Assembly (NCBI GenBank): GCA_000237975.1
Contig: CP003179.1
Span: 1,488,001 to 1,552,000, forward strand
From: Sulfobacillus acidophilus DSM 10332
GTDB lineage: Bacteria; Bacillota; Sulfobacillia; Sulfobacillales; Sulfobacillaceae
DNA length: 64,000 bases
Direction of reading: 5' to 3'
The translations under genes and the position numbers were made by a program. Below the pieces are notes generated by a model that saw nothing but the letters and a program-made list of their open reading frames with translations, made no database searches and was not told where the DNA came from. Of the stretch, positions 50,813 through 57,706 are shown piece by piece. Within the stretch, counting starts at the first letter, position 1. Every line of letters begins with the position of its first letter.

Positions 50813-53431
50813 GTGAAGGCTTCGGATATCCGCCAAAAGTTTCTACAGTTTTTCGCCGCCCAAGGTCATCAGGTGGTTCCCAGTTCCCCGCTTGTGCCGG
50901 CCGGGGATCCGACATTGTTATTTACAAACGCCGGAATGGTGCAATTTAAGGACGTTTTTCTCGGAAAAGAGAAGCGGTCTTATTCGCGCGCCGTCACGGT
51001 CCAAAAGTGCATGCGGGCCGGCGGAAAACACAACGATTTGGATCAAGTGGGTCGCACCGCTCGGCATCAAACGTTTTTCGAAATGCTGGGCAACTTTTCG
51101 TTCGGGGATTATTTTAAGCGGGATGCGATTGATTACGCATGGCGTTTCTTGACCGGTGAATTGGGTTTGGATCCCGCCAAACTCTGGATTACGGTGTTCG
51201 AAACGGATGACGAAGCCTATCGGCTGTGGCAAGAGGTGGCCGGGGTGCCTTCCGACCGGATTGTCCGCATGGGAGAAAAAGACAACTTTTGGAGCATGGG
51301 CGATACGGGGCCGTGTGGTCCCTCGAGCGAAATTTTTGTGGATCGTGGGGAAGAATACGCCTGCGGTCCCCAGTGCGGTTTAGGTCAATGTGATTGTGAC
51401 CGGATTCAAGAGATCTGGAATCTGGTTTTTATGCAATACAACCGTGACGAAACCGGGACTTTGACTCCGTTACCGCGTCCCAGTATCGACACCGGCATGG
51501 GTTTGGAGCGGATTGCCGCTTATTTACAAGGGGTGGATTCCAACTTTGAAACCGACTTGATTTTTCCCTTGATTCGTACGCTGGAGGATATGACGGGAGT
51601 ATCTTACGACCCGGGACCGGAGGGCATGCCGTTTCGGGTTATCGCCGATCATATTCGAGCGATTACGTTTTTGTTAGCCGAAGGGGTGTCCTTCAGCAAT
51701 GAGGGTCGGGGATATGTGATGCGCCGGATTCTCCGGCGCGCGATGCGCTACGGTCGGTTACTGGGATTTGAGTCGCCGTTTTTATATCAGTTGGTACCCG
51801 TAGTCGGCGAGATCATGGGAGACGCATATCCGGAAGTGACCAATGGGCAGACGGTGATCCAAGAATTGGTCAAAAACGAGGAAAATCGTTTTCTGGCCAC
51901 GTTAAGCGCGGGGATGAGGGTGCTGGCGCAAAAACTGGAATCGCTCCAGCCCGGCGCTGTGTTGTCCGGGGAAGACGCGTTTCAACTGTATGACACGTTC
52001 GGCTTTCCGCTGGATTTAACCCGGGATGTGGCCGACGAACATCAGGTGCGGGTGGATGAAGCCCAATTTGAGGTTTTGATGCAAGAACAGCGCGAACGGG
52101 CGCGGCAAAACCGCGGAAAAACCGTGCAGCACCTGCCGGCGCCGGGCCCTACGACATTTTGGGGCTATGAGACGCTCGAGCTGGATAACGAACCGATTCA
52201 AGCCATTTTTTTGGGAGACGACCGGGTCGAACGGTTGGAAACCGGCGATCAAGGGTGGGTGTATCTCGCTCGGACACCGTTTTACCCCGAAGGGGGCGGC
52301 CAAGTCGGGGATACGGGCTGGATTACCACGGCCACCGGTCTGGCGGAAGTGTTGGATACGTTAAAGTCCGGCGAGACCATCTGGCATGTGGTCGCCGTTC
52401 GCCAAGGATTTGTCAAGTCGGGTCAACCGGCGCAATTGCGGGTTTCTGTCGAGAAACGGTTAGCTGCTATGCGTAATCACACCGGCACCCACTTGCTTCA
52501 TGCCGCACTGCGGCAGATTTTAGGCGAGGGGGTTCATCAAACCGGGTCGTTAGTGGCCCCCGATCGGCTCCGTTTCGATTTCTCCTATCCTCGGCCTTTA
52601 ACGCGGGAGCAAGTGACGGCTATTGAAGATCTTGTGAATGAATGGATTCTGCAGGATTTGCCCGTGCATAAAGCGGAAATGGGGAAAGACGAGGCCTTGG
52701 CGCAGGGGGCGTTGGCCTTTTTTGGCGACAAGTATGGGGAGCGGGTTCGCGTGGTCACGGTTCCGGGAGCCAGTCAAGAATTATGCGGCGGTACCCATTG
52801 TACCCGGACCGGCGAAATCGGCCTATTTGCCATTTTGGAAGACAGCAGCGTGGGCGCCGGCTCCCGGCGGATTGAAGCGGTGACCGGGCTTAACAGCCTG
52901 ACGGCGTTTCGGGAACGGCGGGCGGTGTCGGATGCGCTATTAACTCTCTTTAACGGGACGAGCTTAGCCGATATTCCCGATCGGGTCCGGCAATTGCAGG
53001 AGGAGGCCCGTCAATTGGCGGATGCCCTGCGGGAAAAGGAACGGCAGGCACGCCACGAACGCGGTCGTCAACTCGCGGCCGAAGCCCACCTCGTCGGGGG
53101 CTACCGGTGGTTGGTTGAGCGTGTGGAGGATACCGCGTCGGTGGAGGAATTGCGTGAGGTGTTGGATGGCGTCAAGGAGCGCGTCGATGGGGCGGTTTTA
53201 GTGGCAAATCATCACGATCGCGTCTCATTGATGGTATACTTTGGAGAGCGTGTTCGGCATTTGGGACACCGGGCACGCGATGTGGTGAAAGAATTGGCTC
53301 GCCCCATCCAAGGCGGCGGGGGCGGCCGCGATGACGTGGCCCAAGCCGGCGGGCGCAACCCGGAGGGGATTGCCCGGGTATTGGAACTGGCCCAGCATTG
53401 GGTGGCGGAAAATTTTGATCGGGCAGGATAA
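50813..53431 (+). CDS. alaS: alanyl-tRNA synthetase
   Basis: 872 residues, full length. Class II core ([43 protein letters not shown]), an editing domain with [13 protein letters not shown] and [13 protein letters not shown] zinc ligands, and a C-terminal C-Ala domain ending in [14 protein letters not shown]. Start GTG 50813 follows AAGGAGGAG. The gap to the upstream gene is only 31 bases, so no T-box leader is present. Confidence 0.97.
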
Positions 53432-53477
53432 TCCGGGCGCGAACGCGAATGGATTACCCGGAAAGGATGTGGGACGG

Positions 53478-53750
53478 ATGGGCGTGTCGGACGAAACCCG
53501 GCGACTGGGCGATTATCCAGACGCGGAAAACCAAGCTGATCTGGTGTTGCGGGAAGTGTACGCAGCCCTGAAAGACAAAGGATATAATCCGATTAGCCAG
53601 CTCGTAGGGTATCTCTTGTCCGGCGATCCCGCCTACATTACCAGTCATCGCGGAGCCCGTAACCTGATTCGCCGGCTGGAGCGGGACGAATTATTGGAAG
53701 AACTGCTGCGTCAATATGTCGCTCATTTGGAGGCCCCTCAGGACGTGTGA
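53478..53750 (+). CDS. ireB: IreB family regulatory phosphoprotein (UPF0297)
   Basis: 90 residues. In Enterococcus IreB is phosphorylated by the kinase IreK and affects envelope stress and cephalosporin resistance. [20 protein letters not shown] and [19 protein letters not shown] are the family core. The alaS-ireB-ruvX order is conserved in Firmicutes. Start ATG 53478. The stop overlaps the ruvX start. Confidence 0.92.
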
Positions 53751-54493
53751 AAAAGCGCATAATGGGGTTGGACGTGGGGGATAAATGGATTGGGACCGCC
53801 GTGAGCGACGAGCTGGGAATGATTGCGAGGTCCTTAGATCCGATTCGCCGTCGGGGGTTGCCGCAAGATGTGGCGGAAGTGGTTAAGTTGCTTCGCGCAT
53901 GGGACGCCGACACGATTGTGGTCGGGTTGCCGTTAAATATGAACGGCACCGTCGGACCCCAAGCCGAGAAAGTATTACAATTTCAACGGGCGTTGGAGAA
54001 AAAAAGCGTTGCAACCGTCATTAGCTGGGACGAGCGATTGACCACACGACAAGCGGAACGCATACTGTTGGAGGGTAACATGCGGCGGGAACGCCGCAAA
54101 GAGCTGGTCGACGGCGTGGCTGCGGCGCTCATACTACAAGCGTATTTGGATCGCCAACGGGCGATGCCCCAGAGAGAGGAGACTCACATGGCTGACGATA
54201 AGGATTTATTTGACCAGGCACTACCGGAAGACGAAGACGAAATTATTACGCTCACCGACGAGGAAGGCCATGAGCATGAATTCGTGGTGGACGTGATTGA
54301 GGTGACCGAAAAAGAGTACGCCATTTTGTTGCCCATCGACACGGAGGAGGACGAAGAGGCGGAAGCGGTCATTTTACGGCTCGAAAAGGATGCCGATGGG
54401 GACGACATCTTGGTGGATATCGAATCGGAAGAAGAATGGGAGCGGGTCGCCCAGGCTTACGAGGATTTGTTGGACCAAGAGCCTGAAGCCTAG
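53747..54493 (+). CDS. ruvX: RuvX (YqgF) resolvase-like protein fused in frame to a DUF1292 domain
   Basis: 248 residues. Residues 1-140 are Ruv[36 protein letters not shown] and [10 protein letters not shown], a RNase H-like fold acting in rRNA maturation. Residues 148-248 are an acidic DUF1292 domain ([29 protein letters not shown]-like segment). These are separate genes in most Firmicutes. Here no stop codon separates them. A perfect AGGAG (54177-54181) lies six bases before an internal ATG (54188), so a free DUF1292 protein can also be made. Start GTG 53747 overlaps ireB. Confidence 0.88.
54188..54493 (+). CDS. DUF1292 protein from an internal start
   Basis: Alternative 101-residue product of the same frame, from ATG 54188 with GAGAGGAG upstream. 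It is very acidic and belongs to the YrzB/DUF1292 family, which normally forms its own gene between ruvX and mltG. The strong internal ribosome binding site suggests that this is, or recently was, an independent gene. Confidence 0.7.
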   Translation: MADDKDLFDQALPEDEDEIITLTDEEGHEHEFVVDVIEVTEKEYAILLPIDTEEDEEAEAVILRLEKDADGDDILVDIESEEEWERVAQAYEDLLDQEPEA

Positions 54494-54510: not shown

Positions 54511-55539
54511 GTGATTAGGTTCGCTGTGCACCGAAAGGTCACGAAACGGTTTTGGTGGGTAGTGTCGTTGGCGGCGGGCGGCCTTTTGGTGGGTCTGCTC
54601 GGAATCATGGTGACGCTCTGGGTGCCCAAAACGCCTGGTAGTCATATGGTGCGCTATGTATGGGTTAAGCCTGGACAAACGGCTACCGACGTCGGTTATA
54701 CGTTAGCCAAAGAGGGCATCATCCGTAGCGCCGCCGCGTTTGCCTGGTTAAGTCGTTTCAATGGACTGGCCAGGCATTTGACCAGTGGGGTTTATCGGTT
54801 GTCGCCCGGAGAAACCTTAGTCGCCATTCAGCAACAAATGCGGGCGGGCGATGTGGTCACCATCCGGGTGGTGATTCCCGAGGGGTTTACGGTACAACAA
54901 ATCGTCAATCGGCTGATTGCCCATCATATCGGGTCGCCGGCGGCATTTCGGACGTTGGTGGCCAAGCCCCTGCCGGGTATGCCGAACCCTCAGCCGGGGG
55001 TGCGCGATCCGCTGGAAGGGTACTTGTTTCCGGCTACCTATCAATTTCCCTATAATGTGACCCCCCGGCAAGCCCTCGAAATCATGTGGCAGACCTTTCA
55101 AGAAAAGGTGGCGGCCATTTCCGGCGGTGCACGGCTTAATCTGGGTGCGTGGGTGACGTTGGCCTCGATTGTCCAAAAAGAAACCCCGAATGCCGAGAGT
55201 GCCCCCATCATTGCCGCCGTCTTCAAGAATCGGTTGAAGGTGGGGATGCCGTTGGATTCGGATGCGACCGTGCGTTATGCGCTGAATCATGCCGTGCCGG
55301 GGGGGCTCAGCCTCGGGGACTTGACCGTGGCCTCGCCTTATAACACCTATCTTCATCCGGGACTGCCGCCGGGACCGATTTGTAATCCGGGTTTATCTAG
55401 CTTGACGGCCGCGCTCCATCCGGCCACGGTGCCCTATCTCTATTTCCTGACTCTACGGAATGGACGCGTGCTGTATGCCACAACTTACGCGGAACATTTG
55501 GCGAATATTGCTTGGGCTAATCAACACGGTGGCGAATAA
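54511..55539 (+). CDS. mltG: endolytic transglycosylase MltG
   Basis: Cuts growing glycan strands near the membrane and sets their length. 342 residues: one N-terminal helix (about 16-38), a LysM-like region, then the YceG fold with YLFPATYQFPYN, catalytic Glu224 in ASIVQKE and SPYNTYLHPGLPPGPICNPG. Start GTG 54511 has a weak GCAGG upstream. It closes the alaS-to-mltG cluster. Confidence 0.93.
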   Translation: MIRFAVHRKVTKRFWWVVSLAAGGLLVGLLGIMVTLWVPKTPGSHMVRYVWVKPGQTATDVGYTLAKEGIIRSAAAFAWLSRFNGLARHLTSGVYRLSPGETLVAIQQQMRAGDVVTIRVVIPEGFTVQQIVNRLIAHHIGSPAAFRTLVAKPLPGMPNPQPGVRDPLEGYLFPATYQFPYNVTPRQALEIMWQTFQEKVAAISGGARLNLGAWVTLASIVQKETPNAESAPIIAAVFKNRLKVGMPLDSDATVRYALNHAVPGGLSLGDLTVASPYNTYLHPGLPPGPICNPGLSSLTAALHPATVPYLYFLTLRNGRVLYATTYAEHLANIAWANQHGGE

Positions 55540-55573
55540 ATCGGTTTGACATTGCATGATATTGGAAAAACTA

Positions 55574-55604
55574 CTCCCTGAACATGGTTTCAGGGAGGTT
55601 TTTT
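55574..55604 (+). terminator. terminator-like hairpin carrying the next gene's ribosome binding site
   Basis: CTCCCTGAA (55574-55582), loop of six, TTCAGGGAG (55589-55597), then GTTTTTT to 55604. A textbook terminator for mltG. However, AGGGAGG in its right arm is seven bases before the GTG start of the next gene (55606). Confidence 0.8.
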
Positions 55605-55605
55605 C

Positions 55606-56820
55606 GTGCGGATATCATGGAATGTCGCTCGCCGGCCCTGGGTATTAGGAACGGCCTTTCTTCTGGCGGCCGGGGGTTCGGTGCTGTTCTGGCTATCGGG
55701 GCGCCCGTCGGCCGGTGACGGGCCGCGCTCGCTGCCCGGGCCGGGTCGCGTGGCTACGGTGGCGCTCATCGGCGCCGATGGGACACCGCTCGACCATTGG
55801 ACTCGGCGGGCGGGGATAGAGATTTTTCCGGCCCGTCTGCCCCTCTGGGCGAGAAAGAATCTTCGCCGACAGATTCCGGCCGTCTGGTTTCGTCAGCCGG
55901 TTTTTTTGTGGGTCCCCTCATCGGCGGTCGCCCGCACCTGGCGGCGGTTGAATGTGCCCGGCGTGCAGGCCGCCACCGTGGCTCAACTGGTACCGGACAA
56001 TGACCTGCCCTCGACGATGTGGACCGTATTACAACAAGAGGTCAAGGGAATGCGATCGGCCCGTTATCGCGCTCACGGAGCCATCTGGCAAGCGCCGGTG
56101 CAGGCGACGGTCCGGGTGAGTTGGGATGCGCTTTTAGCCCGGCAATTAACGCAGGGGATACCACTCGGGGGAGCGGTATGGGTCGAAGGAGGCCAGGGCG
56201 CGATCCGGGCGGCGGCGACGCGACCGTCGGGGCGACAAAAGCTCTGGCAACCGTTTCCGGCGGACATGGGGCTGGTGCCGCCTCTCCTGGCGGAGGCATT
56301 GACCGAACCGACACTTTGGAAAGCGCCCGCCTCATTAACCCAGATTGGCCGGCGGTGGGGGCGATCCGGACTCCGGGAGGCCTTTCAGGCCTTGCATCTC
56401 GGTCCGGGCGCGACCGTGACCGGTCAACCCTTGCCCAATCCGCCCTTGCCGTCGCTTTCGGCCGCCACGTTGGCTCAAGGCCGGGCACTATGGGTGACGG
56501 TTCCTGAACTGGTTAGTGCTTATAGTCCTTTCATCAATCAGGGCAACTGGATGCCGCCGACCGCCCTTCGTGTCGGCCACTTGCCCTTAAGTAATCCACG
56601 GCCTGCGCCTTCAGCGGATTTTCGGCAGGTTCTGGATTCGTTACCGAGCGAAGTGGTGGACGGCGACACGGTTTATCTGTGGCAAGTCGGCCCCCAGGGA
56701 CTCGTGGCCATTAGTAGTGGCCGGGCCCGGTTTATCGCGTTTTTGGCCGGTTCGGCGGCTGGCGCGAGTGCCCGCCTCCTACCGATCATCGTCGCCGATT
56801 TGTCGTCTCCGGTTCCATGA
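55606..56820 (+). CDS. penicillin-binding-protein-like protein, degenerate
   Basis: 404 residues with an N-terminal membrane anchor (about 12-30) and an outside domain. The part TLAQGRALWVTVPELVSAYS followed by FINQGNWMPP corresponds to the GQG..vTPlqla.aYa.iaNgG segment of PBP transpeptidases. FIAFLAG resembles the wFiGfaP strand. The preceding KTG motif is replaced (SSGRA) and no convincing SxxK or SxN is seen, so it is probably not a transpeptidase. It follows mltG. The ribosome binding site is inside the terminator-like hairpin. A structural or regulatory partner of cell-wall synthesis is a guess. Confidence 0.6.
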   Translation: MRISWNVARRPWVLGTAFLLAAGGSVLFWLSGRPSAGDGPRSLPGPGRVATVALIGADGTPLDHWTRRAGIEIFPARLPLWARKNLRRQIPAVWFRQPVFLWVPSSAVARTWRRLNVPGVQAATVAQLVPDNDLPSTMWTVLQQEVKGMRSARYRAHGAIWQAPVQATVRVSWDALLARQLTQGIPLGGAVWVEGGQGAIRAAATRPSGRQKLWQPFPADMGLVPPLLAEALTEPTLWKAPASLTQIGRRWGRSGLREAFQALHLGPGATVTGQPLPNPPLPSLSAATLAQGRALWVTVPELVSAYSPFINQGNWMPPTALRVGHLPLSNPRPAPSADFRQVLDSLPSEVVDGDTVYLWQVGPQGLVAISSGRARFIAFLAGSAAGASARLLPIIVADLSSPVP

Positions 56821-56821
56821 T

Positions 56822-57706
56822 ATGATCAGGGCAAATGGCGGGTTACCGCCTGTGGAACGCACGAAATCGGGGTGGCCGGCGGTGTGGATGGAAGATGAAC
56901 TGCGGTCCATGAATCCCTGGCGCTGGATGTGGCTCGGGGTTTGGGTGTGGTTATGGCCCGGGTTGGCCATGCTGTTTTGGACCGTGCGACAGGCACCGGG
57001 TGGGTGGCCCGGCATGTTATTGACGATCTTCTGGTTTTTGGGCGTCCTTTTATTACGGTATGTCGGCGCCCTGACGTATAACTGGTGGATTGGGCCCAAG
57101 GCGGGCTTTTGTTGGATTCGATCCGGGAACGACGTGTTATATATTTGCCAGCGCCGCGCGATCGGGGCCTTGACGGTATTTGCGGGACCGTGGGGCCTTT
57201 GGACCGGAGCGTTTGTCAATGTGGCAGGCTGGGCGCGCGTGATACCTCACCGATGGGCCGTGTTGTTGATCGCAGGGCCGATCGGGGCGTGGCTTATCGG
57301 CTGGTTGACTATTGTGTTGTATAACCGGCTGTCCGACATATTCGACGTCAGATTGGCCATCCGGTGGCTCCGGGAACCCGATGGGGAGTGGCGGGTGATC
57401 GCTTTCGATGCCGAGCGTGTACGGGCTTTGTCCTCGCTTCTTGGGTTTTCATGGACGATAGGGGGGATTTTAGCGACTGTCGTGCCGTTTCTGGTGGCCT
57501 TAACCATTTTGGCCCATCATATTCCGGCGGGGAATTTTGGGTTGAGCGTCATGGCGTTTGTCACGTTGACGGCGATGGGGGTCGGATGGCTTTTCGCTTG
57601 GGCCATGGGTTGGTGGTTTTATGGGGGCAGCGTTTTATACCGCTGGTGGGCCCGCCGGGGTGGCGGATTAACACTCGACGGTCATAGCCTGGACGTGGCA
57701 TTATGA
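56822..57706 (+). CDS. membrane protein of unknown function
   Basis: 294 residues from ATG 56822 with about six helices, rich in Trp and Gly. I see no motif that I recognise. The true start is uncertain: ATG 56888 and ATG 56909 are also in frame and no start has a strong ribosome binding site. mutY begins five bases after its stop. Confidence 0.6.
   Translation: MIRANGGLPPVERTKSGWPAVWMEDELRSMNPWRWMWLGVWVWLWPGLAMLFWTVRQAPGGWPGMLLTIFWFLGVLLLRYVGALTYNWWIGPKAGFCWIRSGNDVLYICQRRAIGALTVFAGPWGLWTGAFVNVAGWARVIPHRWAVLLIAGPIGAWLIGWLTIVLYNRLSDIFDVRLAIRWLREPDGEWRVIAFDAERVRALSSLLGFSWTIGGILATVVPFLVALTILAHHIPAGNFGLSVMAFVTLTAMGVGWLFAWAMGWWFYGGSVLYRWWARRGGGLTLDGHSLDVAL

Follow-up and report, generated by a model that had tools for sequence, protein, structure and literature searches.

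The open reading frame at positions 55606-56820 (plus strand) of the window, the whole stretch of 64,000 nucleotides from Sulfobacillus acidophilus DSM 10332 that was analyzed, almost certainly encodes a protein of the class B PBP type that has lost its catalytic motifs. On balance, we favor the broader reading that it is a conserved pseudoenzyme of this type, which selection has retained as a non-catalytic partner of MltG and/or of the wall synthases. The term "pseudo-PBP" was used for this protein and its relatives throughout. The reading frame is intact, starts with GTG and encodes 404 amino acids. A Shine-Dalgarno-like GGGAGG (55593-55598) is located seven bases before the start codon. The genome comprises 3.56 Mb in two contigs, with 3,472,898 bases in the main contig.

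Sequence homology and predicted fold

Used as a single sequence, the pseudo-PBP matched the Pfam transpeptidase family PF00905 over residues 246-353, below threshold (E 0.0078; 15.9 bits, cut-off 22.1), and the NCBIfam search with the window protein assigned no family. A phmmer search with the same sequence yielded 17 matches, with PhnH proteins in the top three places (5.2e-5 to 5.3e-5) and FtsI/PBP3 proteins in the following 14 (0.019-0.03). A relation to PhnH was rejected, as the profile of 25 members gave no PhnH at E<=1. Scanning the contigs with the single window sequence as query found no relatives, and a protein search found a match in 25 of 61 genomes, its own included. The 25 orthologues were aligned, and the resulting family profile (25 rows) was run against the PDB sequences. 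At E<=1, 48 distinct sequences were retrieved, all 48 named PBP, D,D-transpeptidase or peptidoglycan glycosyltransferase. The best E-value of 9.8e-10 (PenA/PBP2) was summed over two stretches (27.6 + 11.4 bits), and the best single stretch reached 1.2e-5. Sequence homology to the class B PBP transpeptidases was thus found with the family profile, while PF00905 itself was matched by only 9 of the 25 members even at E<=1. An hhalign comparison of the family with three class B PBPs of the window genome and one of G043, all four of the ordinary kind, showed colinearity over 280 columns (probability 84.5, E 7e-6), running from the pedestal to the TPLEVARAY stretch. The best-conserved transpeptidase stretch in the family alignment, the profile matches and hhalign was AQGRALWVTVPELVSAYSPFINQG (56473-56544, plus strand).

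Structure prediction and comparison with PBP2/FtsI folds, one of the checks proposed in the first-pass annotation, revealed a related fold. The AlphaFold2 model of the window protein, built from the pseudo-PBP and nine orthologues, had a mean pLDDT of 69.5 and a pTM of 0.66; its confidence was moderate, with pLDDT 56-66 over residues 211-300, which include the SxxK place. A second model, of the orthologue L026, reached a pLDDT of 80.8 and a pTM of 0.77, with values of 85-87 in the SxxK region. Foldseek returned 267 PDB matches at E<=0.001 for the window model, the best being PBP3/FtsI with an E-value of 1.5e-13. The best 50 of these 267 were all PBP3/FtsI chains, with TM-scores of 0.41-0.52 by query length and rmsd values of 9.4-19.8. 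For the L026 model the best E-value was 1.3e-15 and the best 50 rows were again all PBP chains; for both models nearly all of these best 50 rows were repeat entries of Pseudomonas aeruginosa PBP3. VIA-align was run on the Foldseek candidates, with PBP2, PBP2a, PBP4 and PBP5 entries among its rows. The window model was aligned to PBP3 7kiv with Z 19.4 (rmsd 7.3, 334 aligned) and to 4ovd with Z 18.5 (rmsd 4.1, 285 aligned), and the L026 model to Neisseria gonorrhoeae PBP2 with Z 24.8 (rmsd 4.4, 313 aligned). Pedestal and transpeptidase fold were present in the predicted models, as judged from Z 19.4 over residues 52-402 of the window protein and Z 24.8 over residues 30-408 of the orthologue.

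Three parts can be delimited along the protein. A membrane helix is predicted at residues 12-31 (55639-55698, plus strand) from a model helix, with a pLDDT below 50 there, and from the hydrophobic sequence. A shortened pedestal follows at about residues 47-165 (55744-56100, plus strand), where hhalign sets in at residue 45 and the VIA-align rows start at about 42-52, one of them at 18. The degenerate transpeptidase domain covers about residues 166-404 (56101-56817, plus strand), based on the sub-threshold PF00905 match, the PDB profile matches and the fold. The transpeptidase pattern originally noticed in the C-terminal half is therefore real, but the homology is not confined to that half and covers the N-terminal pedestal as well.

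Catalytic motif positions

The stretch equivalent to the SxxK motif is FPADMGLVP (residues 217-225; 56254-56280, plus strand), which was aligned without gaps both by hhalign and, for the family consensus, by hmmsearch. In the gapless hhalign alignment of FPADMGLVPPLLAEAL with FPPGSIFKPVTAAAAL the Ser of SxxK corresponds to Met221 and the Lys to Val224, with the next residue, Pro225, kept. Column counts were made for the 34 members used. Lys was found at its column in 0 of 34, the residues there being L, V, T, I, W, S, M or F. At the Ser column the members differ widely, with twelve kinds of residue in all and Ser in 3/34. The Gly before the site is kept in 28/34 and the Pro after it in 31/34, and Gly198 is found in 34/34. 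With these residues kept and the Ser-Lys pair in no member, the scaffold is conserved while the catalytic pair is absent. No SxxK tetrapeptide was found anywhere in the window protein; 16/34 members contain such tetrapeptides elsewhere, none of them at the aligned site.

The other two motifs are likewise missing from the window protein. No SxN was found between its residues 226 and 262, and an SxN near the expected place was detected in 3/34 members (L010, L022, G009). Relative to the genome's own PBP, the pseudo-PBP lacks about 35 residues ahead of SxN. The window protein has a single [KR][ST]G, an RSG at residue 253, which is not where KTG belongs. Beyond the position of window residue 330 no [KRH][ST]G was found in 33 of 34 members, the window protein included (L016 ends before that place); the lone exception, G035, carries RSG at 544 of its frame, past the matched region. 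In the window model the C-terminal elements are strands 354-361, 365-370 and 376-381 and a helix at 385-400. In PBPs the C-terminal order is the KTG strand, the next two strands and the last helix. Given this likeness in order, TVYLWQV (VWRP in many relatives) would lie at the KTG strand, residues 354-361 (56665-56688, plus strand), and SSGRA in a later turn; we infer this register from the strand order in the model, in keeping with the family alignment, rather than from a residue-level superposition. SSGRA itself (residues 370-374; 56713-56727, plus strand) lies between strands 365-370 and 376-381 and is not conserved in the family alignment. It had been proposed as the replacement of KTG, which was a mis-registration. 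The initial description of a PBP-like protein without catalytic motifs and with neither SxxK nor SxN was borne out by the profile matches, the fold, Met221/Val224 and the missing SxN and KTG. Two outcomes that would have spoken against it, an unrelated fold and active motifs in better-aligned positions, were looked for and neither was found. An active PBP with misread motifs was rejected on the basis of the hhalign register, the SxxK column counts and the scans for SxN and KTG.

The same genome encodes six PBPs above the PF00905 cut-off, three of class B and three of class A by best NCBIfam match (2/6 over the curated cut-off), and 2 SEDS proteins. SxxK and KTG are intact in all three class B proteins, and SxN appears as SCN in one of them and as SSD or SDD in the other two. 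With six PBPs, two SEDS proteins and intact class B motifs, the genome does not need the pseudo-PBP for cross-linking as such. Having lost the catalytic residues, the protein probably serves not as an enzyme but as a regulator or partner.

Locus, leader hairpin and conservation

The local gene order is alaS, ireB, a fused ruvX-DUF1292 frame, mltG, the pseudo-PBP gene, an uncharacterized frame and a HhH-GPD DNA glycosylase; the name alaS and the MutY-like nature of the DNA glycosylase are what we take these genes to be from their sequences. mltG, encoding the endolytic transglycosylase (54511-55539, plus strand; PF02618 with E 1.2e-77, and TIGR00247), directly precedes the gene, as already noted in the first-pass annotation, and the neighborhood proved to be conserved, with mltG upstream in 32 of the 34 members. 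The IreB-family frame (PF06135) lies upstream of mltG at 53331-53750. The RuvX resolvase and the DUF1292 domain share one frame (53747-54493), whose alignment spans 240-248 amino acids in 9/9 loci (L026-L034) and only 133-146 in G008, G030, G036, G037, G039 and G040. The frame at 56717-57706 is tryptophan-rich, apparently of membrane type and without a Pfam match; frames of this type are weakly conserved (26-37%) in many relatives, between the pseudo-PBP gene (or mltG) and the DNA glycosylase.

Just before the GTG start lies a leader hairpin (55564-55604, plus strand) that carries the Shine-Dalgarno sequence in the 3' arm and has a T run. It obtained a terminator-like score on both strands, so that mltG and the pseudo-PBP gene need not be co-expressed. 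It may act either as a terminator or as a translational gate. The leader alignment comprised 23 rows, leaving out L021 (uncertain start codon), L025 and the members first found by profile scan. GGAAA was present in 20/23 rows and the exact GGAAAAACT in 13/23. Two of the pair statistics tended to favor the structure. Of the cells, 77.9% were paired versus 75.6%, with 6 of 500 shuffles reaching 77.9%, and the covariation score was 0.223 versus 0.179, reached by 0/500 shuffles and above all slid versions. Pairs with double changes (187/500 shuffles) and further pair types (206/500) showed no excess over the shuffles. The hairpin pattern occurs once in the window genome. Within 300 bases after mltG, GGAAA was absent from the six genomes that lack the gene at this place (G036-G040, G008) and equally from the members G035, G041, G009 and G030, so the leader element is not universal; G030 has a related hairpin with GGAGAAACT.

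In a profile scan, 37 of the 61 genomes matched at E<=0.01. The matches in G043, G051 and G055 were regarded as ordinary PBPs, based on an inspected protein for G043 only, which left 34 members; a duplicate of G041 (L025 and L071) had been removed beforehand. The G035 protein was taken as a stop-to-stop frame of 578 amino acids with flanking non-family sequence. The pseudo-PBP is present in 32/34 genomes of the window's family and in 2/8 others of the order (G041, G035), spread over 13 genera and three families of the order. The relatives found by the scan are Sulfobacillus (S. benefaciens, S. thermotolerans, Sulfobacillus sp.) or Bacillota bacterium MAGs. Of the two family genomes without a member, G024 (71% complete) has no detected mltG, and G008 (97% complete) has kept mltG; MltG hence does not need the pseudo-PBP everywhere. 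In G003 and G012 (L075, L076) the gene is found on a contig other than that of mltG, so that in this genus the linkage, or the assembly, is broken. The gap between the two genes is larger (about 200-370 bases) in G015, G028 and G041. Outside the order, the matches found were weak and lay within longer frames. The class-wide search of 154 genomes, with up to 12 candidates scored per genome, gave matches in 8 genomes beyond the 34 members (4.4e-7 to 8.0e-5, frames of 561-1100 amino acids), which were taken as ordinary PBPs without inspection. Apart from G000 and G002, the phylum-wide search of 398 genomes gave just 2 partial matches, both weak and in 559-residue frames; with at most 4 candidates scored per genome, it may have overlooked distant members. 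A link to spore formation was rejected, as SpoIVA was found in 57/61 genomes, with and without the pseudo-PBP gene.

Protein identity to the window was 24-31% for the pseudo-PBP (25-row alignment) and 50-64% for MltG in 33 loci (41-61% in a second locus set). For dN/dS, 24 genomes were compared, and 19 pairs with an MltG identity above 66% were considered. The 11 pairs with finite dS gave 0.12-0.44 for the pseudo-PBP, with 0.44 for the closest pair; these values are rough in six of the 11 pairs because of dS >1, and they describe the relatives, as the window gene has no close relative among the genomes compared and is not part of any pair. For mltG, 10 finite pairs gave 0.07-0.19. Retention in 32/34 and 2/8 genomes, mltG synteny in 32/34 members and the dN/dS range do not look like those of a decaying gene.

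Proposed role and comparison with known systems

In Bacillus subtilis, His-MltG was reported to pull down PBP1 and PBP2B, and surface plasmon resonance (SPR) gave a KD of 128 nM for MltG-PBP2B, while it could not confirm the PBP1 interaction (excerpted in PMC8135044). Catalytically inactive PBP2B still supported division, with PBP3 becoming essential (as summarized in PMC5656894). The short strands made by MltG are described in the former source as serving a yet unknown process. For Enterococcus faecalis, MltG phosphorylation is reported to affect cephalosporin resistance (PMC12369325). A dead class B PBP fixed beside mltG would, with the MltG-PBP2B binding and the precedent of inactive PBP2B, most simply be a binding partner of MltG and the synthases.

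In the model that follows, the topology in the membrane, the contact with MltG and the sense in which it is regulated are our inference, with synteny, selection and the published MltG-PBP binding as the basis for the role. The protein would descend from a PBP2/FtsI-type enzyme, whose Ser/Lys/KTG chemistry it lacks, and consist of a single membrane helix followed by a pedestal and a transpeptidase domain, both shortened. Selection would retain it as a non-catalytic binding partner, most likely of MltG, encoded immediately upstream, and via MltG it may contact the PBP/SEDS synthases, the nascent glycan of which is cleaved by MltG. It might occupy or present the class B PBP surface to which MltG ordinarily binds, and MltG could thereby be tethered to, or withheld from, active synthase complexes. 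More tentatively, and with doubts outweighing our inclination, we suggest that an order-level lineage evolved a naturally dead class B PBP beside mltG as a dedicated, non-catalytic MltG-PBP regulator, and that in many members a conserved hairpin in the leader gates it by masking the ribosome binding site.

Other roles were considered. The dead groove might still bind stem peptide or glycan and report the wall state as a non-catalytic sensor, with the adjacency to mltG reflecting shared localization. The predicted fold core is indeed kept while the catalytic residues vary freely, and the Gly and Pro flanking the SxxK site are conserved. However, the about eleven residues before the predicted membrane helix leave no room for a cytoplasmic signaling domain, and the shortening by about 35 residues before SxN, relative to the own-genome PBP, removes part of the usual active-site region, which makes a sensor unlikely. 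We give slightly less credit still to a decoy or spare class B PBP that partners SEDS glycosyltransferases (FtsW/RodA) without acting on MltG. In class B PBPs the membrane helix and pedestal carry the SEDS contact; both are predicted here in shortened form, and the top Foldseek rows include FtsI of FtsWIQBL complexes. Nevertheless, the number of SEDS proteins does not rise with the pseudo-PBP: exactly 2 were counted in 52/61 genomes with or without the gene, the window genome also having 2, and a link to an extra SEDS protein was rejected. A decaying or selfish gene without function would fit the fast divergence, the missing gene in G008, the sub-threshold Pfam match and one profile match (G028) that crosses a TAA, yet it is highly improbable in view of the open frames in the 34 members (L016 being cut by a contig end), the dN/dS range and the spread over the order; by the frames and dN/dS, a pseudogene was rejected. 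The PBP scaffold has been reused by other families for new chemistry, and the near-invariant Thr298 and Tyr306 of the 25-row alignment might hint at this, but an enzyme of different chemistry is equally hard to credit, given that Ser, Lys, Cys, His, Asp and Glu are all missing from the columns of that alignment that are invariant or nearly so.

Among the matches listed in a search of open-licence PMC titles and abstract openings on inactive or pseudo PBPs and the Sulfobacillus wall, no such family was described. A naturally dead class B PBP next to mltG would bear on the role of MltG at wall synthases and on the part of a class B PBP that it needs. It would offer a native setting for separating PBP structure from catalysis and would extend one of the best-studied families of drug targets by a branch of pseudoenzymes.

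Compared with known systems, the pseudo-PBP resembles class B PBPs of the PBP2/FtsI/PenA type (PF00905 plus pedestal) in the predicted order of helix, pedestal and transpeptidase fold, in the TPLEVARAYLPF-type stretch and, in most members, in the Gly before and the Pro after the SxxK site. It differs from them in the loss of SxxK, SxN and KTG in the window protein and the residues missing before the SxN place. The genome's own SpoVD/FtsI-like pair and PBP2 (G000:C1:1411256-1413996 and 284488-285480) belong to the same fold family and are colinear in hhalign; in contrast to the pseudo-PBP, these three have open frames of 623-720 instead of 404 amino acids, retain SxxK and KTG and are encoded elsewhere in the genome. 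PBP2B of B. subtilis, a larger protein, is catalytic in the wild type, whereas the pseudo-PBP family is devoid of the motifs by nature. The likeness between the two lies in the precedent of PBP2B for a non-catalytic, structural role (as outlined in PMC5656894) and in its reported partnership with MltG (as excerpted in PMC8135044).
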